From Prochlorococcus marinus XMU1406 (lineage in GTDB: Bacteria; Cyanobacteriota; Cyanobacteriia; PCC-6307; Cyanobiaceae): a stretch of DNA of 64,000 nucleotides. Position numbers and translations under genes: made by a program. Shown here piece after piece: positions 4,382 to 24,599 of the stretch (within the stretch, counting starts at the first letter, position 1; every line of letters begins with the position of its first letter). The stretch is taken from NCBI RefSeq assembly GCF_017696055.1, contig NZ_JAAORG010000001.1:620001-684000 (forward strand). The letters are read 5' to 3'. A model generated the notes under the pieces. It searched no databases. It saw only the letters and a program-made list of their open reading frames with translations, and was not told where the DNA came from.

Positions 4382-5716
4382 TTGAAGATAAGAAAATTGC
4401 TTAAAAAAAAATTTATAATTCTGTTTGCGACATCCTTTTCTGGGCTATTTTTAAATAATTTTGCAGAAGCTACAGTTTTAAATAATAGTTATAAAGAGGT
4501 AATTGATCATGTTTGGCAAATTGTATATAGAGATTTTCTTGATTCAAGCGGTAAATTTCAAAAGTCCAATTGGATTAACCTAAGAAAAGAAGTTTTATCA
4601 AAAACATATTCAGATAGCAATGAAGCATATGATGCGATTAGAGATATGCTTTCTAATTTAGATGATTCTTATACAAGATTTTTAGAACCTAAGGAATTTA
4701 ATCAAATGAGAATAGATACCTCTGGTGAATTAACTGGAGTTGGTATCCAAATAGTTAAAGATAAAGAATCTGATGATTTAATAATCATTTCTCCTATAGA
4801 GGGCACCCCTGCATTTGATGCTGGAATTAAAGCTAGAGATAAAATATTGTCTATAGATGATATTTCTACTGAAGGTATGAATATTGAGGAGGCTGTGAAA
4901 TTAATAAGAGGACAAAGAGGTACTAAAGTAAAGCTTGAAATTCTTAGAGGTTCTAAATCCTTTTTTAAAATTTTATCAAGAGAAAAAATTGAAATAAAAT
5001 CTGTATCAAGTAAAGTCAATCAAACCAAAAACGGCTTATTAATTGGCTATGTAAGGATTAAACAATTTAATGCAAATGCATCAAAAGAGACTAGAGATGC
5101 TATTAAGGATTTAGAAACAAAAAAAGTCGCAGGATATGTTCTTGATTTGAGAAGTAATCCAGGAGGTTTATTAGAATCAAGCATTGATATCTCAAGGCAT
5201 TTCATCAACAAAGGAGTAATAGTAAGTACAGTAAGTAAAGATGGTTTAAAAGAAACAAAAAAAGGAAACGGTCAAGCTCTTACACAAAAACCCTTAGTTG
5301 TCTTAGTTAATGAGGGTTCTGCTAGTGCTAGTGAAATAGTCTCAGGTGCAATAAAAGATAACAAAAGAGGAAAATTAGTTGGGAAGAAAACGTTTGGTAA
5401 AGGTTTAGTTCAATCTATGAGAACATTAGTTGATGGTTCAGGTCTAACTGTTACAGTCGCTAAGTATTTAACTCCGAACGGCACTGATATAAACAAATCT
5501 GGAATTATTCCAGACATAGAAGTAAAAATGAATATAAATCCTATTCTTCAAAGAGAAATTGGAACTAGAAAAGATAAACAATATAGAGCTGGTGAAAAAG
5601 AGCTAGTAAATACAATTAAAAGAAATAATCAGATAAGTGAATTTAATCCAAACACTAAAAACCTTAATGCATTCCTAAAAATTAATAAGGAAAATAAAGT
5701 ATTTGCATTAAATTAA
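4382..5716 (+). CDS. ctpA: Carboxyl-terminal processing protease CtpA
   Basis: Lumenal/periplasmic serine protease of family S41; the cyanobacterial member trims the C-terminus of the D1 protein of photosystem II. The 444-residue protein starts at TTG 4382 and has a signal peptide ending near FAEA, an N-terminal helical domain, a PDZ domain (TGVGIQIV to AVKLIRGQRGTKV) and the catalytic core with Ser in EGSASASEI and Lys in KTFGKGLVQS. It converges on nadA with a 4-bp overlap of stop codons. Which of several Ctp paralogues it is cannot be decided here. Confidence 0.93.
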   Translation: MKIRKLLKKKFIILFATSFSGLFLNNFAEATVLNNSYKEVIDHVWQIVYRDFLDSSGKFQKSNWINLRKEVLSKTYSDSNEAYDAIRDMLSNLDDSYTRFLEPKEFNQMRIDTSGELTGVGIQIVKDKESDDLIIISPIEGTPAFDAGIKARDKILSIDDISTEGMNIEEAVKLIRGQRGTKVKLEILRGSKSFFKILSREKIEIKSVSSKVNQTKNGLLIGYVRIKQFNANASKETRDAIKDLETKKVAGYVLDLRSNPGGLLESSIDISRHFINKGVIVSTVSKDGLKETKKGNGQALTQKPLVVLVNEGSASASEIVSGAIKDNKRGKLVGKKTFGKGLVQSMRTLVDGSGLTVTVAKYLTPNGTDINKSGIIPDIEVKMNINPILQREIGTRKDKQYRAGEKELVNTIKRNNQISEFNPNTKNLNAFLKINKENKVFALN

Positions 5717-10821: not shown

Positions 10822-12012
10822 ATGAGTCTTAAAAAAAATATAAACGGTATTAAGAAAAATTATTCCCTAGGAATAATTGGAGGCGGTCAACTGGCTTTGA
10901 TGTTGATTGAGGCAGCAAAAAAAAGAGATCTAGAAGTATGTGTGCAAACAAAATCTTGTGATGATCCTGCGGGTTTAAAAGCAGATCACGTCATAGAAGC
11001 TGATCCTTTAAAGATAAGAGGTAATAAATCATTAATTAATGAGTGTGAAAAAATAATTTTTGAAAATGAATGGATAAAAATTGATAAATTAAATTTAATT
11101 GGCAATAACGATATTTTTGTTCCAAGCCTTAATGCAATTAAGCCTTTAGTAGATAGGTTTTCTCAAAAAAAATTAATAGATAGGATGAATATCCCCTGTC
11201 CAAAATGGACAAGTATTGAGGATTTTAAAAATCTCCCTGATGAGGAAATCAATGATTGGACTTTTCCTCTAATGGCAAAATCAAATAAAGGTGGATATGA
11301 CGGTAAAGGGAACAAAAAAATAAAGACAAAAGAAGATTTAGATTCTTTTTTAATAGAGAATAATACTGATGAATGGTTACTAGAAGAATGGATAGAGTAT
11401 GAAAAAGAACTAGCTCTTGTTGGTTCGAGAGATAGAACAGGTAATATAAGATTCTTTCCAATCGTTGAGACATTCCAATCGAATCATGTTTGTGACTGGG
11501 TTCTTGCACCTGCGATAAATGAATATGATTTGAACTTATTTGCAATAAATATTTTCTCTTCAATAGTCAATGAACTTAATTACGTTGGAGTTTTGGCTAT
11601 TGAATTCTTCTATGGAGATAATGGGCTTTTAATTAACGAAATAGCTCCTAGAACACATAACTCAGCTCATTTCTCTATTGAAGCTTGTACTTCAAGTCAG
11701 TTTGATCAATATGTTTGCATTTCTTCTGGGATAAGACCACCTGAAATTAAAATGAACTGTGAAGGGGCAATTATGATAAATCTACTGGGGTTAAAAAAGA
11801 ATTTCCCAATTTCAATGGATACAAGAGTTAAAATGTTATCTGAAATTGAGGGTTCTAATATTCATTTTTATGGCAAATCTCGAGAAATTCTGGGAAGGAA
11901 AATGGCTCATATTACATTTTTATTAAATGGTAAAACGCATTCAGAAAGATATGATGAGGCACAAGTATTATTAACTATGGTAAGAGACATTTGGCCATCT
12001 CCAAATGCATAA
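10822..12012 (+). CDS. purK: 5-(carboxyamino)imidazole ribonucleotide synthase
   Basis: ATP-grasp enzyme that carboxylates AIR to N5-CAIR in purine synthesis. The 396-residue protein has LGIIGGGQLALML at the N-terminus, the ATP-grasp lid KSNKGGYDGKGN, EEWIEYEKELALV and NEIAPRTHNSAHFSIEAC. It is followed at once by the 6S RNA gene, an arrangement known from other cyanobacteria where purK and ssaA are neighbours. Confidence 0.95.
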   Translation: MSLKKNINGIKKNYSLGIIGGGQLALMLIEAAKKRDLEVCVQTKSCDDPAGLKADHVIEADPLKIRGNKSLINECEKIIFENEWIKIDKLNLIGNNDIFVPSLNAIKPLVDRFSQKKLIDRMNIPCPKWTSIEDFKNLPDEEINDWTFPLMAKSNKGGYDGKGNKKIKTKEDLDSFLIENNTDEWLLEEWIEYEKELALVGSRDRTGNIRFFPIVETFQSNHVCDWVLAPAINEYDLNLFAINIFSSIVNELNYVGVLAIEFFYGDNGLLINEIAPRTHNSAHFSIEACTSSQFDQYVCISSGIRPPEIKMNCEGAIMINLLGLKKNFPISMDTRVKMLSEIEGSNIHFYGKSREILGRKMAHITFLLNGKTHSERYDEAQVLLTMVRDIWPSPNA

Positions 12013-12030
12013 AAAAATAAGTTAGAGTTA

Positions 12031-12212
12031 AGTTGCTGGATCTTTGGTTAAGTTCTTCTTTATGTGCTCTGATCTGACTCTCTTTCGACATGAGGAGACT
12101 GTCGTGATGCGGTAGTAAACCGATCTTGTAATCGGAAACGAAAGCCCACTTTGAATCCTCTTCTGGCATTTCCAGGTCGATGCAGCAGAGAACTGACGGG
12201 GATCCGGTAATA
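12031..12212 (+). ncRNA. ssaA: 6S RNA (ssaA / Yfr7)
   Basis: Small RNA that mimics an open promoter and sequesters RNA polymerase holoenzyme. It is called from position (directly after purK, as in other cyanobacteria), length near 180 nt, and a closing stem: 12033-12042 (TTGCTGGATC) pairs with 12201-12210 (GATCCGGTAA) over ten positions with two G-U pairs. A strong terminator hairpin follows. An open reading frame on the opposite strand is a shadow. Ends are approximate. The 3' part from 12173 is duplicated at 15026, so the gene's end was replaced or restored by element integration. Confidence 0.8.
12173..12208 (+). repeat. attL-like direct repeat (3' end of 6S RNA)
   Basis: 36-bp sequence beginning CAGGTCGATGCAGC and ending GGGGATCCGGT, identical to 15026-15061. 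It forms the 3' end of the functional 6S RNA. Weaker similarity extends about 12 bp to the left in both copies (TTCTGGCATTTC against TTATGGCTTTTT), as expected where an attachment site imitates the gene. Confidence 0.9.
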
Positions 12213-12260
12213 CCTATCAAACTGCTTGTTATAACAGGCTTTTGATAGGTCTTTTTATTT
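12211..12260 (+). terminator. Terminator of 6S RNA
   Basis: Inverted repeat ACCTATCAAA (12212-12221) with TTTGATAGGT (12241-12250) followed by CTTTTTATTTT. Its loop has a small inner stem. A related but not identical terminator follows the second copy of the repeat at 15061. Confidence 0.85.
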
Positions 12261-12273
12261 TATGAATTTGGTG

Positions 12274-12322
12274 TGCAGGACCAAGGTGCAGGACCAAGTT
12301 GCAGTACCAGATGCAGGACCAT
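12274..12322. repeat. Four tandem TGCAGGACCA repeats (left arm)
   Basis: Copies start at 12274, 12287, 12300 (one mismatch, TGCAGTACCA) and 12312, so the period is 12-13 bp. They lie just inside the left att repeat. Further copies are at 12447-12457 (same orientation), 12505-12515 (inverted) and 14940-14963. Position and spacing fit arm-type binding sites of a tyrosine recombinase; this function is inferred. Confidence 0.8.
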
Positions 12323-12628
12323 ATTAGTGATTGCTAACAAAATAAAGCTATAACTAATGAAACAGATCGCTTTAGATAAAATTTTAAGTAATTTGATTCT
12401 ATATTTATCTATTTAATGGCTTTTCTTTTAAGAAAAAGTCAATGTATGCAGGACCAACATAATTGCTAGCAAAGATTAGCATGACTTAGTTCTGTTGAGC
12501 TTCTATGGTCCTGCGCTGGCTACTCGGTAAACATATATTTATACATAGTTTTTAATTTAAAACTTCTCTAGGAGCTACCTAGACCCCTTAGGGGTTAATT
12601 TGAATCCTTGCTATATCGATATGAGAGC
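12323..12628. other. Non-coding part of the element with two more TGCAGGACCA copies
   Basis: No convincing reading frame. It holds a TGCAGGACCAA copy at 12447-12457 and an inverted copy (ATGGTCCTGCG) at 12505-12515. Otherwise AT-rich sequence without clear structure. Confidence 0.6.
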
Positions 12629-12799
12629 TCAGAAATTTGTGTTGAAATTATCTGGATATAGTCTTTCAATAGCTTCTTTCTGTTCTAGCTTTTTGATCTC
12701 TTCAGTATCTAAAACAGGGCAGGTGTTTTGATTCAGTGATGAGAGGAAAGTGCTTTTATTGAATAGTTTGAAAAGTGGTGGGAGCAGAAATCTTTTCAT
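12629..12799 (-). CDS. Small element-encoded protein, unknown
   Basis: 56-residue frame starting at ATG 12799, whose ATGA overlaps the stop of the preceding small ORF. A longer start at 12832 would overlap that ORF fully. It opens MKRFLLPPLFKLF, much like the signal peptide of the 13019 ORF, but lacks a clear cleavage site and then turns polar (EEIKKLEQKEAIERLYPDN). No family recognised. Confidence 0.45.
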   Translation of the reverse strand: MKRFLLPPLFKLFNKSTFLSSLNQNTCPVLDTEEIKKLEQKEAIERLYPDNFNTNF

Positions 12800-12903
12800 T
12801 CTCTTGAATAGTCCGAACCTTCTAAACACCAATAAAGCATCCTAGTTTTACTAAGTTTTTTCTTGCTCATATATTTTTGACCAGAAGCTTCGCATTGTTT
12901 CAT
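12796..12903 (-). CDS. Small Cys-containing ORF, probable second half of a split gene
   Basis: 35 residues (MKQCEASGQKYMSKKK...MLYWCLEGSD) with two cysteines. Its ATG overlaps the TGA of the ORF at 12900-13019 as ATGA. The pattern xMKQCEASG...CLEG resembles the C-terminal half of small secreted Prochlorococcus proteins whose N-terminal half is a signal peptide followed by VWLV. It therefore reads as the frameshifted continuation of its neighbour, or as a coupled partner. Confidence 0.45.
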   Translation of the reverse strand: MKQCEASGQKYMSKKKLSKTRMLYWCLEGSDYSRE

Positions 12904-13019
12904 TGAATCGGTTGGTTACTTGTCATACCTTGATATCTCAGAACTAACCATACAGTTCCTGCATTAACAGCAGTAGGTAAAGCAAGTGCAGCTAGTAGTG
13001 GGATTAGGAAGCGTTTCAT
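12900..13019 (-). CDS. Small secreted protein, N-terminal half
   Basis: 39 residues: a clean signal peptide (MKRFLIPLLAALALPTAVNA) then GTVWLVLRYQG and a stop. It starts 3 bp after the protease stop, so it belongs to the same transcription unit. The protein ends abruptly after about 19 mature residues, and the homologous C-terminal half lies in the next frame, which suggests a frameshift between 12900 and 12916. Confidence 0.55.
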   Translation of the reverse strand: MKRFLIPLLAALALPTAVNAGTVWLVLRYQGMTSNQPIQ

Positions 13020-13022
13020 ATC

Positions 13023-14384
13023 TCAATTAAATTTATTTCCACAAGAGTTTAATTTCATATCAAATGAATCTAGTCCGCCTGGTCTTTTCACTTTTATTCG
13101 TTGAAGTAAATCGACTATTGATACAGCAAAATTTAAACCTTCACTAGAAGTTTTACCAAAAGTATTTACACCAATTACTTCACCATTCTCATTTAATAAG
13201 GGACCTCCACTATTTCCTGGATTTATTGCTGCATCAGTTTGAATTAAAGAGGAACCAGCCATAACAATAGAATCAAAATCATTTCCAGATCTTCTTACGG
13301 CACTTACTATTCCTCTGGTGACGGTATTTGATAAACCTAGAGGAGAGCCTAATGCAATGACATCTTCACCAGCCGTTGGGTAGTTTGAGTAACAAATAGG
13401 AAGAGCTTTTGGTAGGTTAGTTCCAGAAACACTAATAATTGCAAAGTCATCGTCTCTACTTACAAAAATTACCTTGCCTTTGTAACTTCTTCCGGAAACA
13501 GTCTCAATTAGGATTTCTTTGTTATAAGATCCGCTTACCACATGTCTATTTGTAATTAATTTCCCATCATCAGTAACAAAAAATCCAGTGCCTTGGCTAC
13601 TTCCTGCTTTTACTGTTACAACACTTGGAAGTGATCCCCCTGCTATTTCTCTAATTGAGGGTTTTTCTTTAATTGATTTAATAGCTATGTTTATTTTTGG
13701 AATTTTCCATTGCTTAATAGATTTTTTATAAAGAGCAGACATTTTTTCTACTGTTTCTTCTCCGATAGGAACTACTGTTTTATCTACTCTTATTGATAAG
13801 CCATCATATGATTTGGCATTTTTTACATCATTTACAAATGCATTCGGCAACATAAATATTCCATCATCTCCATATAAAGAATAAGTTTTACCTGCAAATT
13901 TAATTTCTAATGGAGATGGTATTTCTCCTCCCGCAGTCTCATATCCATAGGAACATGCTAATAATCCGCAACCTGCTTTTAATGACCATAATCCCCTTAC
14001 GTAGTCAGTACTCCATTTTGTAAAAACAGTTGATTCATAAGGGTAACTAAATTTGTAGTTCCTGTCATAAACTACATATTCAATAGATTTATCGAATCCA
14101 GAAACTAATTTTACAATTTGTCCGTAAGGAACTTTTCTTCTTTTTGGGACTCTATTCCATAAAATATCACTTTCCAGTTCAACAACTGATAATCCTGTAT
14201 CAGGATCAATAAGTTCTTTTCTTCTTGGATTGCCATCTTTATCAACGCAATCTTTATGCTTACCTCTATGTACTGGAGATTCGCAATTTATCTTAACGGC
14301 AGATATTTCTGGTGCGTAAGTTGAAGAGATTCCAATAAAAGCAAGATAAGAAAGAGAGATTAAAGTAGCTTTTATTCTTTTCAC
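13023..14384 (-). CDS. Secreted trypsin-like serine protease (S1C/HtrA-type core)
   Basis: Exported 453-residue protease, cargo of the element. It has a signal peptide (residues 1-29), a novel 220-residue N-terminal region with several cysteines (NCESPVHRGKHKDC, GCGLLAC) that I do not recognise, and a C-terminal trypsin-like domain with His281 (TNRHVV), Asp313 (DDDFAII) and Ser392 (NPGNSGGPL). No PDZ domain follows, so it is not a typical HtrA/Deg protein. The intact triad argues for an active enzyme. Target unknown. Confidence 0.85.
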   Translation of the reverse strand: MKRIKATLISLSYLAFIGISSTYAPEISAVKINCESPVHRGKHKDCVDKDGNPRRKELIDPDTGLSVVELESDILWNRVPKRRKVPYGQIVKLVSGFDKSIEYVVYDRNYKFSYPYESTVFTKWSTDYVRGLWSLKAGCGLLACSYGYETAGGEIPSPLEIKFAGKTYSLYGDDGIFMLPNAFVNDVKNAKSYDGLSIRVDKTVVPIGEETVEKMSALYKKSIKQWKIPKINIAIKSIKEKPSIREIAGGSLPSVVTVKAGSSQGTGFFVTDDGKLITNRHVVSGSYNKEILIETVSGRSYKGKVIFVSRDDDFAIISVSGTNLPKALPICYSNYPTAGEDVIALGSPLGLSNTVTRGIVSAVRRSGNDFDSIVMAGSSLIQTDAAINPGNSGGPLLNENGEVIGVNTFGKTSSEGLNFAVSIVDLLQRIKVKRPGGLDSFDMKLNSCGNKFN

Positions 14385-14444
14385 AAGACTATTAATTAAT
14401 TAACAAGTATGATAATGATTCTTTCTAATATCTTCAATCCTCTA

Positions 14445-14966
14445 TTAAGTTCTCTTAACCTTGGCTTGATTATCTTTCTTCCTTGTTTTAACTACTCCAC
14501 CATCAACATATAGTTCATTACCGAAGGCAGCTTGAAGTCCAGAATAATCATTTGTTTTCTTTCCTACTCTTTCTTGTTCTTCTTTGAATTGAAGTATTAT
14601 TTTGATTACCTCTTCAGGGTTAGTTGGTTTTCCTTCTTTATCAAAATTAATTTGATATATATCCTTTAGGATCTCTTTCTCCTCTTTTGGTAATTCAGAA
14701 AGATCATTCTTTCTATAATTCTCTTGAACTTCTTCTACTAGTGATAGTTGATTTATTTCCTTTCCAATTTGACGTTGTATTTCTGCTTCAACCTTTGACC
14801 TGTTCGCGAGTGCTTCTTTGTGAGTATTGCCTACTTTCTTCCTTATTGAGTTCCCAAGTTTAGCCCTCAAAGACTTTGGTGTCGCAACTGTTATGTAATA
14901 ACCAGTTCTACCTTTTCTTTGGTGGATACTAGACACTTGTGCAGGACCATTATGCAGGACCAACAT
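14445..14966 (-). CDS. Tyrosine recombinase N-terminal fragment, no catalytic domain
   Basis: 173 residues. Residues 12-70 (QRKGRTGYYITVATPKSLR..., then NTHKEALANRSKVEAEI) match the N-terminal DNA-binding block of phage-type integrases (DUF6538-like). The rest is a charged helical linker; the core-binding and R-H-R-Y catalytic domains are missing. Its first codons are written in two TGCAGGACCA repeats at 14940-14963, so binding there would cover the gene start; GTG at 14937 is an alternative start. It lies next to the right att repeat, the usual place for int. Remnant or stand-alone arm-binding protein. Confidence 0.6.
   Translation of the reverse strand: MLVLHNGPAQVSSIHQRKGRTGYYITVATPKSLRAKLGNSIRKKVGNTHKEALANRSKVEAEIQRQIGKEINQLSLVEEVQENYRKNDLSELPKEEKEILKDIYQINFDKEGKPTNPEEVIKIILQFKEEQERVGKKTNDYSGLQAAFGNELYVDGGVVKTRKKDNQAKVKRT
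14940..14963. repeat. Two tandem TGCAGGACCA repeats (right arm)
   Basis: Copies at 14940-14950 and 14953-14963, 13 bp apart, same period and orientation as the left cluster at 12274-12322. They overlap the start of the recombinase fragment and lie 63 bp inside the right att repeat. Confidence 0.8.
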
Positions 14967-15025
14967 AGCAATGAAAACCTAGTTATTCAAGCTATTATTA
15001 GAGTTCTATGAGTTTATGGCTTTTT

Positions 15026-15061
15026 CAGGTCGATGCAGCAGAGAACTGACGGGGATCCGGT
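15026..15061 (+). repeat. attR-like direct repeat (displaced 6S RNA 3' end)
   Basis: Second perfect copy of the 36-bp sequence at 12173-12208. Here it has no 5' RNA part and should be the 3' end displaced by integration. The following bases TTTT would pair less well with the 6S 5' strand than those after the left copy. Confidence 0.9.
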
Positions 15062-15065
15062 TTTA

Positions 15066-15112
15066 TCTATCAAAAGCTTGTTCAAATACGCTTTTGATAG
15101 GTATTTTATTTT
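15066..15112 (+). terminator. Terminator of the displaced 6S 3' end
   Basis: Inverted repeat CTATCAAAAGC (15067-15077) with GCTTTTGATAG (15090-15100) followed by GTATTTTATTTTTT. Same stem core as the terminator at 12211 but a different loop, consistent with one copy coming from the element and one from the chromosome. Confidence 0.8.
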
Positions 15113-15173
15113 TTAGGAATAGCTAGACTGTTTTTATTCTCTATCAGTTTCAATAATTCGCTCGCCATAATAC

Positions 15174-15221
15174 TTGACGATTCATTGCCAATGTATTTAT
15201 AGTAGTAGTACATATGTATTA
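15174..15221 (+). promoter_or_regulatory. Promoter and LexA-like operator of DUF1651 gene 1
   Basis: TTGACG (15174-15179), 18-bp spacer, TATAGT (15198-15203), then the near-palindrome TAGTACATATGTATTA (15206-15221). The 16-mer equals the operator at 17654-17669 except for its two central bases. It differs at one position from the LexA box reported for cyanobacteria (AGTACWNWTGTACT). Regulator identity is inferred. Confidence 0.65.
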
Positions 15222-15228
15222 CTAACTA

Positions 15229-15528
15229 ATGACTTTAGGAGGAGCTAATGTTTGGACTAATTTTTCTTACGGTTATCGTAATGAGTCCCCAAGTGGTTGG
15301 TTGCTTAGCCCAAGCCGCAGCAGATTAATTTTATTTACAAGGAATAAAAAATCTCCAAGAAATAATATGAGAATCTTTGCTCATACTTATTATGCAAATA
15401 ATCTTGGTGAGCCAATGGCAATTAAATCATCAACTCAAATGTATTTGGATAATGCTTGGGATAAATGGCATGACCTTCAATTAGAAGGTTGGACTTTTGA
15501 AGAACTTGAATTACCTGAATCAGTATGA
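15229..15528 (+). CDS. DUF1651 protein, copy 1
   Basis: 99-residue member of DUF1651, a family confined to marine picocyanobacteria, function unknown. Family marks are SGWLLSP near residue 22, RLILFTRN, YANNLGEPMAIK and the closing AWDKWHDLQLEGW. Its ATG 15229 has no Shine-Dalgarno sequence and would lie close to the predicted transcription start, whereas the overlapping frame at 15248 has AGGAGG. It is the first gene of a three-gene operon; its TGA overlaps the next ATG. A paralogue with the same promoter is at 17675. Confidence 0.75.
   Translation: MTLGGANVWTNFSYGYRNESPSGWLLSPSRSRLILFTRNKKSPRNNMRIFAHTYYANNLGEPMAIKSSTQMYLDNAWDKWHDLQLEGWTFEELELPESV
15248..15328 (+). CDS. Overlapping 26-codon hydrophobic frame, copy 1
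   Basis: Alternative frame inside the 5' end of the DUF1651 gene, starting at ATG 15248 five bases after AGGAGG. The peptide begins MFGLIF, is hydrophobic and has a lipobox-like VVGC ending at Cys19. A frame of equal length with conservative changes and LAGC at the same place overlaps copy 2 (17694-17774). It could be a leader peptide, a tiny lipoprotein or a coincidence of DNA-level conservation. Confidence 0.4.
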   Translation: MFGLIFLTVIVMSPQVVGCLAQAAAD

Positions 15529-15930: not shown

Positions 15931-16680
15931 TCAACTTTTTATTGCCACTTGCCAATAAGGATAATCTAAATTTGATTTTTCTCTCATTAATTGCAATTTT
16001 CTAGAGTTTATCTTTACTACTATTCCATCTGTGGGATATTTCCTAAAAAGCTTCCCTTCTAGCCACATTTTTCTAAATACTTGAACTTGGCTCGTATAGT
16101 TACATGAAATATCCTGAGGGATCGTGAAGCCCAGCTCCGAAAGACTTTTTTTGGACTCATATTGGTTAAGTGTTGAATTTAGTATTTGAAATGCGCAGAA
16201 GCTAAGACTTTCAGAAAATCCTTCTTTAGCTCTTAGATATCCAGAAGCGAATCTCTGGGAAATATTTGGACATTGGTTGGGCGCAAATAATTCACCTCTA
16301 ACTTGAAGAACTCCTCGTAAAGGGAGATTAGTGGGAATGTCTTGGACTTTAATAAGTTTAATAGTAATGTCTGACCCTTTTCTTGATATTGCTTTCTCCA
16401 AGGTTCCATCTCTATATTGCAAAGCAACAGCACAACCATCAATTTTCGGTTCAATTAATAATCTGGTATCTACTAATAATCCTTTTAAAAAATCATCTAA
16501 TGAATCCTTTTCTAATGAAGGTAAAACTAGTTTATTTTTCTTTTTAAAGTAATCACAATTAGGGTTTGTTCTTAATAAATTCTTTTCAAGTTGGTCGAAC
16601 TGCTTATCAGAAATTAAAGCATTACCATTTCTATAATTATCGTCATACCATTCAATGCGTTCTTCTAAATAAGTCTTCAT
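15931..16680 (-). CDS. Minimal NAD-dependent DNA ligase: Ia plus adenylation domain only
   Basis: 249 residues against roughly 670 for LigA. Residues 1-40 match subdomain Ia, which binds NMN of NAD+ (WYDDNYRNGNALISDKQFDQL). Then come the adenylation motifs: nucleophile Lys79 in EPKIDG, RGELF at 128-132, DGIVVKIN at 218-225 and the final WQVAIK at 243-248, after which the protein ends. OB-fold, zinc finger, HhH and BRCT domains are absent. All nucleotidyltransferase motifs survive, so adenylation may work, but sealing without the OB-fold is doubtful. No separate full-length ligA lies in the window. Its ATG abuts the stop of the upstream small gene. Confidence 0.8.
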   Translation of the reverse strand: MKTYLEERIEWYDDNYRNGNALISDKQFDQLEKNLLRTNPNCDYFKKKNKLVLPSLEKDSLDDFLKGLLVDTRLLIEPKIDGCAVALQYRDGTLEKAISRKGSDITIKLIKVQDIPTNLPLRGVLQVRGELFAPNQCPNISQRFASGYLRAKEGFSESLSFCAFQILNSTLNQYESKKSLSELGFTIPQDISCNYTSQVQVFRKMWLEGKLFRKYPTDGIVVKINSRKLQLMREKSNLDYPYWQVAIKS

Positions 16681-24065: not shown

Positions 24066-24599
24066 AATTTTAAAAGTCAATCAAAAAAAAAAGACAATTT
24101 AAATCCTACTGATCGTCAAAACAAAATGTGGATATTTTTTTTAAAAAAGAGAAAATATTTTATTTTGCACATAGAAGATTTAATTCAATCAACATATTGT
24201 GGAAAACCCTGTTGAAAAACACTAAAAAAGTGGATAACTCTCGGGGAGCATGATCAAAACAAGCTTTTCTGGAATAATTTTTAAGTATTAATACTTCATC
24301 AAGAAAAGTTTAAATATAGTTTAAGATGCTTCATAATCTATTGTTATAACTGTGGGATCATTACTTTTATATTGATAAAAAGGATTTTTACTAGAAACTA
24401 GTGTTGAGAAAAAATTAAAAAATTTATTTTTGAATGATGTATCAAATTGACAATTAAAGTTAAGAAAAACAAAAGGAAACTTGAATTTTTGAAATTTTGT
24501 CTCATCTGTTTAAATTAAGTCTTGATTCGGTTTTCTCTATGGCAACACTTCCCAAACGCAAGATTAATCAAATAGGTTTGTATGAGTTAAATATTTAAA
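24066..24599. other. Long intergenic stretch with DnaA-box-like sites and a possible gene remnant
   Basis: Three DnaA-box-like 9-mers on one strand: TGTGGATAT (24127-24135), TGTGGAAAA (24198-24206) and AGTGGATAA (24229-24237). On the minus strand an open frame ending at 24321 reads NPFYQYKSNDPTVITIDYEAS without any standard start codon upstream, so it may be a decayed gene. Nothing else recognised. Confidence 0.35.
24127..24237. promoter_or_regulatory. Cluster of three DnaA-box-like 9-mers
   Basis: TGTGGATAT (24127-24135), TGTGGAAAA (24198-24206) and AGTGGATAA (24229-24237), all in the same orientation. Each differs by one base from TGTGGATAA or equals the cyanobacterial variant TGTGGAAAA. 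In such AT-rich DNA some matches arise by chance. Confidence 0.3.

Follow-up and report, generated by a model that had tools for sequence, protein, structure and literature searches.

Integrase islands usually target tRNA or tmRNA genes (Islander, PMC4383910). In Prochlorococcus, tycheposons are described, in the sections of the paper available to us, as 4-200 kb cargo elements with a tyrosine recombinase, and the sites described for them there are 7 tRNA genes (PMC10872708). Other picocyanobacterial tyrosine integrases, found with variable islands, have been linked to tRNA-Phe or tRNA-Cys (PMC10187409, in the part available), and the siphovirus P-SS2 is described as having a putative site-specific attachment in Prochlorococcus, its putative site being a match of 53 bp that is partly identical to a tRNA; 6S RNA is unmentioned in the portion of that text that was searched (PMC2784084). 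A literature search likewise returned no naming of 6S RNA as an integration site in the titles and abstract beginnings among the matches listed. As for the locus itself, yfr7, the 6S RNA gene, lies between purK and PMM0684 in strain MED4 (PMC1242208), and PMM0684-0686 have been placed in genomic island 2 (PMC2518516).

We analyzed a window of Prochlorococcus marinus DNA (the whole stretch of 64,000 nucleotides) for which an earlier note had proposed that a mobile element is integrated at the 3' end of the 6S RNA gene. That proposal is supported by empty and filled sites, by continuity of the flanking DNA and by intact integrases in relatives. We consider it highly probable (about 0.93) that 2,853 bp of the window derive by deletion from an integrative element whose tyrosine integrase recombines the element's core with the host 6S 3' end. 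In mechanism, these are ordinary integrase islands. With those that use tRNA or tmRNA genes, the elements share an encoded tyrosine integrase (PF00589 above cut-off in relatives; the window keeps residues 1-120), catalytic-residue motifs in relatives' full-length integrases, a target that would be restored at one end by element sequence with a displaced fragment at the other, and empty sites in close relatives. Unlike those islands, the target here is the 6S RNA gene: ARAGORN found no tRNA or tmRNA in the window, and none in any of the 12 stretches with an integrase or 6S that were taken from relatives. Tycheposons resemble these elements in their Prochlorococcus host group, tyrosine recombinase and variable cargo including nutrient genes, and the tRNA-Phe- and tRNA-Cys-linked integrases resemble them in enzyme type, variable islands and hosts; both are set apart from the present elements by the targets described for them. 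P-SS2 is alike in its putative site-specific attachment. The 6S target and a dedicated lineage seem to be new, and tycheposon or integration-site papers or their supplements may list a 6S site.

The repeated 6S RNA 3' end and its terminators

The locus contains the following features.

10822-12012, plus strand: purK, the conserved left neighbour of 6S (Pfam ATP-grasp and PurK_C; upstream of 6S in loci of the genus)
12030-12214, plus strand: 6S RNA (Yfr7/SsaA), complete, the target gene (Rfam RF00013, 92.7 bits, model positions 1-187)
12173-12208, plus strand: attL, the left core copy, 6S RNA 3' end (36-bp direct repeat)
12212-12250, plus strand: left-junction terminator hairpin, probably element-borne (-19.1 kcal/mol; loci L074 and L108 share 50 bases after the core)
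15026-15061, plus strand: attR, the right core copy, displaced 6S RNA 3' end (36-bp direct repeat)
15064-15103, plus strand: right-end terminator hairpin, probably the host 6S gene's own (-17.5 kcal/mol; 15062-15229 aligns behind 6S at empty sites)
15229-15528, plus strand: DUF1651 gene, the conserved right neighbour (PF07864, 2e-10)

Comparison of the two core copies within the window shows that they are identical at 36 of 36 bases, start 2,853 bp apart and are embedded in a 61-bp block with 90% identity between left and right. When the genome of 1,651,015 bases was scanned for the core with up to 3 mismatches, only these two sites were found, and the reversed pattern gave 0 sites in the same genome. 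The full identity of the copies, the lack of a third copy genome-wide and the empty control rule out a chance origin of the repeat. The RF00013 match spans the whole model, and the right core copy gives no match to RF00013 at the gathering threshold. The 187 nucleotides ending with the left copy fold with a z-score of -2.4 (1 of 200 shuffles as good), and those ending with the right copy with a z-score of 0.45 (131 of 200). The complete 6S RNA thus includes the left copy only, and the right copy is a displaced 3' end.

Behind each copy lies a hairpin followed by a T-rich stretch (z -5.2 on the left and -6.1 on the right, with 0 of 200 shuffles as good in either case), and the two hairpins are alike in the outer stem and different in the loop. 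The earlier note had described a perfect repeat of the 6S 3' end, a left copy that completes the 6S RNA, a right copy with no 5' partner and a separate terminator hairpin behind each, and all of this is borne out by the base comparison, the Rfam match and the folding statistics. We argue for an exchange of terminators because of the position of the hairpins and because the 50-mer behind the core is identical at L074, L094 and L108. Clustering as proof of the exchange was considered and dropped, since the left junctions of arm-bearing sites (mean terminator identity 0.86) are no more alike than they are to empty-site terminators (0.85).

Empty and filled 6S loci in relatives

We compared 60 6S loci, an even draw across the family, many of the genomes being drafts, and sought the next conserved gene at a minimum of 60% identity in the stretch fetched. 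The earlier note had named a 2.9-kb segment universal in related genomes as the finding that would count against it; instead, 40 of the 60 loci are empty, the distance from the core to the next conserved gene being 188-227 bp, and 13 are filled, with that gene 440 bp to 10.1 kb away and inserts that vary in length and content. The other 7 are undecidable, the next gene having no match at that identity within the fetched stretch. In the window the corresponding distance is 3,053 bp, which is 200 bp plus 2,853 bp. The 168 bp outside the right copy (15062-15229) align directly behind the 6S core at the empty sites L070 and L077 with 84% identity, so that single-copy sites have the uninterrupted structure predicted for them. 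Each occupied locus retains one complete 6S RNA in 6 of 6 genomes examined (89-94 bits), as compared with 91-93 bits in 2 empty genomes.

The region downstream of 6S is variable across the genus. At several filled loci (for example L038, L068, L074, L058 and L076) an alignment search did not find a second core, and the pair of motifs described below at offsets -89 and -76 is absent from 8 of 16 displaced 6S ends fetched; these absences suggest that some of the inserts have decayed or belong to other types.

Integrases, putative arm sites and the proposed exchange

The features below lie between the core copies; offsets on the left are counted from the start of the 30-base core (12176 for the left copy).

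12274-12321, plus strand: four putative arm sites (12274, 12287, 12300 and 12312; offsets +98, +111, +124 and +136), from the motif
12447-12456, plus strand: putative arm site (offset +271), from the motif
12506-12515, minus strand: putative inverted arm site (offset +330), from the motif
13023-14384, minus strand: cargo, an HtrA-like trypsin-type serine protease of 453 aa (Pfam PF13365, 2.7e-29; NCBIfam HtrA models below cut-offs)
14445-14966, minus strand: truncated integrase that keeps residues 1-120 of 432 aa and ends in the tail of a small ORF of the element (about 14445-14609), from comparison with relatives
14940-14962, plus strand: two putative arm sites (-89 and -76 from the right core) overlapping the first int codons, from the motif

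No Pfam model matches the open reading frame at 14445-14966 above a cut-off. Over approximately its first 120 residues, this frame shares 95% identity with the beginning of the relatives' 432-aa tyrosine integrase, and the remainder is the tail of another small ORF. By this comparison it is a truncated, fused integrase gene that keeps about 120 of 432 codons, and the recombinase-type features that the earlier note placed between the copies can now be given this more specific identity. The catalytic motifs of tyrosine recombinases are absent from this copy. Intact integrases are present in relatives: the 432-aa protein of L108 and a 435-aa relative in L110 match PF00589 and PF13102 above cut-off, and the intact genes lie just inside the right core copy, 53-61 bp away from it. 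The catalytic set of tyrosine recombinases is R-K-H-R-H-Y. Read by eye, the full-length integrases carry ACRKG, HDLRR, RHKIP and MMYNRPT motifs or variants of them, such as RQKM in place of RHKI at L148. Solved structures gave a single weak match, the XerC-like 4a8e (E 0.00025). Three elements have both core copies and an intact int on one contig (7,712, 8,028 and 15,329 bp). The left boundary of the repeat is identical in most element pairs compared, only the 6S 3' end being duplicated; differences between left and right cores are uninformative about the crossover base, whose position is not placeable.

The 10-bp motif TGCAGGACCA occurs 9 times in the window, as compared with 1.19 expected, and 8 of the 9 occurrences are inside the element. 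The spaced motif pair is found in 24 of 266 genomes of the genus (control 0), and the -89 and -76 offsets are kept at 8 of the 16 displaced 6S ends. The motifs keep a constant spacing from the core to its left and to its right, in the manner of integrase arm sites, a function that we assign to them only putatively. In phage lambda, the core of the attachment site is flanked on either side by repeated arm sites, and int is next to the core. The present element is similar: its core is central, with putative arm sites to the left and right, and int adjoins the core, with putative arm sites over the first int codons.

In the exchange that we propose, the tyrosine integrase would recombine the element-borne core with the same sequence at the host 6S 3' end. 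After integration the left side would hold a complete 6S gene whose bases past the crossover and whose terminator come from the element, and the 6S tail and terminator of the host would be found at the right end. Genome comparison suggests that such elements move; they may also excise, and the copy in the window could still move with integrase supplied in trans.

The integrase clade and competing readings

Among 19 integrases that form a clade, 15, from 8 genera, adjoin a 6S 3' end (the match at L210 being weak), 3 lack such a neighbour and 1 is interrupted where its contig stops, whereas 0 of 7 integrases outside the clade adjoin one; the clade therefore looks like a 6S-targeting lineage. In other genera, related integrases adjoin a 6S 3' end copy of different sequence. 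The tree took in 7 low-scoring integrases, including L195, whose 6S-end score of 28 against a shuffle maximum of 24 was counted as none. It left out fragment matches (G000, G321, G331, G021, G276, G378, G374, G384 and G359), long ORFs (mostly about 716-750 aa) that match by their N-terminal part only, and other low-scoring matches (for example G090, G279 and G180).

The variable region downstream of 6S and the broken integrase of the window would also fit an origin by local duplication or homologous recombination, in which the second 6S end arose without site-specific integration and the DNA between is an ordinary island. This we regard as very improbable, given that the repeat is limited to the 3' end and shares its left boundary in most pairs, that intact integrases adjoin the displaced 6S end in several genomes, that arm motifs stand at fixed offsets and that other genera show the same pattern with different 6S ends. 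That the elements are prophages or phage satellites with 6S as an incidental site is also improbable, if less so. The intact integrases do match PHROG 1, and a review lists tycheposons as proposed phage satellites (PMC11389934, in the part available), but no structural phage gene was found among the element proteins searched (part of the ORFs only). Blastn of the window element against phages returned 10 records, with no match above 3% of the query. When viral_contigs was scanned with the core, arm-motif and integrase-fragment queries, two of them gave 0 matches and the third gave 3 candidate stretches, none confirmed; with no relative among these contigs, a phage origin in the databases was dropped.

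It is possible, though we think it unlikely, that what we describe are tycheposons as published, which would then use 6S in addition to tRNA genes and would form no separate lineage. Shared hosts, a tyrosine recombinase and nutrient cargo such as a phosphonate-type transporter speak for this, as does the published size and cargo of tycheposons; the seven described tRNA sites and the tRNA-free ARAGORN results speak against it. We lean slightly toward an old integrase lineage of marine picocyanobacteria, specialized on the 6S 3' end, its core changing with the host 6S. Insertions by such a lineage would swap the last bases and terminator, gain and loss of the island could tune 6S output, and 6S would be the founding edge of genomic island 2.

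Integration at 6S would offer a mechanism for the variable DNA beside this gene in Prochlorococcus, and a conserved integrase clade on a global transcription regulator would widen the set of RNA genes that serve as targets. Filled and empty sites, putatively element-borne terminators and fixed arm sites make for a clean comparative system. In two genomes an additional phosphonate-type ABC transporter is part of the cargo, and the movement of nutrient genes among streamlined ocean bacteria may therefore be due in part to such elements. A small ORF of 57-72 aa hints at an excisionase candidate. Two members searched against Pfam gave no match, and one strong match, in G362, is far from 6S. The ORF is present in 21 of the 266 genomes of the genus, 9 of which are among the 24 with arm sites (about 1.9 expected by simple arithmetic).

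The 6S RNA locus and its repeated 3' end

The gene order in the window is purK, 6S RNA (Yfr7/SsaA), 2.85 kb of intervening DNA, and a second copy of the 36-base core that ends 6S RNA.

12030-12214: 6S RNA (RF00013, 92.7 bits)
14445-14966, minus strand: truncated tyrosine integrase ORF, a 95% match to residues 1-120 of a 432-aa protein
15026-15061: right core copy, an exact repeat of the 36 bases ending 6S RNA

The earlier note was right that the 6S 3' end is repeated downstream, and a search allowing up to 3 mismatches found no third repeat-like site in the genome. Folding places a terminator-like hairpin directly behind each core copy, in agreement with the claim that each has its own terminator, and an Rfam search together with folding finds a full 6S RNA at the left copy only, in line with the right copy having no 5' partner. 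The reading built on these features, a mobile element at the 3' end of 6S RNA, holds, with comparison of genomes pointing to movement. The window also contains a Yfr17 RNA 12 kb downstream of 6S (24095-24354, plus strand; RF02365, 96.7 bits) and, downstream of the site, a short conserved ORF (15931-16680, minus strand) with an NAD-dependent DNA ligase adenylation domain only.

Empty and occupied sites

Among 400 genomes sampled evenly across the family, 60, all from one genus, contain the core pattern. From these 60 genomes 62 loci were fetched, with 60 complete copies of 6S and 6 displaced ends, meaning 6S 3' ends without the rest of 6S. The DUF1651 gene, the conserved right neighbour, starts 188-227 bp past the core in 40 of the 60, indicating that the 2.9 kb is not common to all relatives; in 13 the interval is between 440 bp and 10.1 kb, and in 7 the gene has no match at 60% identity or more within the fetched stretch. 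In the window this distance is 3,053 bp, the sum of 200 bp and the 2,853 bp that separate the two repeats. At empty sites the 6S core runs straight into sequence that aligns with the 168 bp beyond the right copy, the single-copy structure that had been predicted, so taking out the insert and one copy would give the empty form. One complete 6S RNA is found at the left junction in 6/6 occupied genomes tested (89-94 bits, Rfam; loci L094, L108, L109, L105/L106, L033 and L035), and two empty loci (L070, L077) score 91-93 bits. This argues that insertion spares the 6S gene, with the 6S 3' end and terminator lying at the element junction.

Two further kinds of terminator occur right after the 6S core, the AAGGCTTAGA... 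type (L038, L046, L068, L114, L135) and the AACCTCTCAAAAG... type (L034, L045, L058, L133), mostly without the TGCAGGACCA array described below; they suggest that other element types may use the same site. At L108 (oriented, from 13156), L103 and L113, a right end is followed by the terminator of another element type, which looks like tandem insertion. At L108 a 60-aa ORF comes after that terminator, and the same ORF stands directly behind 6S in L034. In genome G374 the 6S 3' end recurs, with one mismatch, 613 kb from the 6S gene (L039, core at 4714), and L133 (genome G569) has 6S-end copies at 2495 and 2830, 335 bp apart, a minimal insert.

Integrase, putative arm sites and cargo

The N-terminal part of the integrase is matched in 8 of 121 genus genomes searched, the window's genome included. 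MIT 9314 (G321) retains 249 residues at 92% identity, AG-349-I11 has a relative at 60%, and the gene is full-length in AG-418-D13, AG-402-K22, AG-388-F11, AG-402-K16 and AG-426-D16, which we take to be single-cell genomes. Phage_integrase and SAM-like core-binding domains score above Pfam cut-offs in both full-length proteins tested. All five full-length copies and the 60% relative read into the element, with start codons 56-61 bp and 53 bp, respectively, from the matched core. Three genomes have both core copies and an intact integrase on one contig, at spacings of 7,712, 8,028 and 15,329 bp. Past residue 120, the window ORF continues as the end of another small ORF, which in intact elements is separated from the integrase by several kb; the window copy thus arose by internal deletion. 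This small conserved ORF (57-72 aa; window 14445-14609, minus strand, fused to the integrase start) recurs in L105, L108, L109 and L038 and might encode an accessory or excision factor.

The motif TGCAGGACCA, a putative arm site, occurs nine times in the window at up to one mismatch (1.19 expected), eight of them within the element. Counted from the left core (+) or before the right core (-), the offsets are +98, +111, +124, +136, +271, -89 and -76, with an inverted site at +330, and the same offsets return in other elements. The -89/-76 pair, which overlaps the first integrase codons, is exact at 8 of the 16 displaced ends fetched and absent at the other 8. The first site is at +98 in most motif-bearing left junctions; offsets are shifted by 1-3 bp in L115 and L129, and L054 and L076 have later sites only. 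Of 266 genomes of the genus, 24 have the spaced pair, against 0 for the control.

Cargo differs among the inserts compared. The window element carries an HtrA-like protease, and G321 and G417 share a phosphonate-type ABC transporter set, whose binding protein is 98-100% identical in these two of six genomes tested and has only 26-30% relatives in the other four. The G380 insert contains a glutamine-II riboswitch (L035, 3638-3700, plus strand). In G374 the insert encodes a SUFU-domain protein of 1,224 aa (L038, 5044-8718, plus strand).

Other genera and the probable MED4 site

6S RNA could be located in 89 of 91 genomes of the family, and its own end is repeated downstream in 2 of 40 loci of other genera, L152 (7,271 bp) and L164 (3,410 bp, with an integrase remnant). 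Related integrases, at 57-58% identity, are present in L152 and in L148, whose contig stops short of the right end; the motif arrays of these two loci are unlike TGCAGGACCA in sequence but similar in layout, with 13-bp steps from about +104, and L152 also has a motif pair ahead of the right core. A profile of these integrases matched 61 of 400 family genomes (E <= 1e-10), many through the N-terminal part alone, and neighbourhoods were fetched for the best matches. Among 19 integrases of at least 200 bits, 15 have a 6S-end copy nearby, at 39-116 bp except in L209 (418 bp, ORF without a start); the match in L210, one of the 15, is weaker (score 34 vs a shuffle maximum of 20). One more is cut off by the contig end, and no 6S-end copy lies beside three (L214, L215, L217) or beside any of seven integrases of 72-100 bits. 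In a tree the 19 form one side with full support, and the 6S label requires 3 changes vs a mean of 8.1 for shuffled labels (0/500 as low, a number helped by near-copies).

Outside the window's genus, a full 6S is paired with a displaced end in G086 and G021 and in six further genomes. For these six, distances computed from coordinates are 9.7 kb in G092, about 6.3 kb in G165, 40.4 kb in G023, about 10.5 kb in G273, about 15.6 kb in G156 and about 22 kb in G198. In the 40-kb stretch of G023 (L222-L223) several ORFs, 340 and 516 aa long, are repeated, as though IS elements had piled up. That the arrangement recurs in several genera, with a core that varies along with 6S, suggests a dedicated integrase lineage. 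The mechanism is a familiar one; 6S RNA is not named as an integration target in the portions of the literature available to us.

The core match of G152 (652766-652795) falls within the published coordinates of MED4 yfr7 (652625-652844; PMC1242208), so this genome is very likely MED4. The site there appears unoccupied, and a DUF1651-like gene (49% identity) follows after 178 bp. PMM0684 adjoins yfr7 in MED4 (PMC1242208), and PMM0684 and PMM0685-0686 are placed in island 2 (PMC2518516); combining the available portions of these two papers, our own reading is that 6S forms the edge of island 2.
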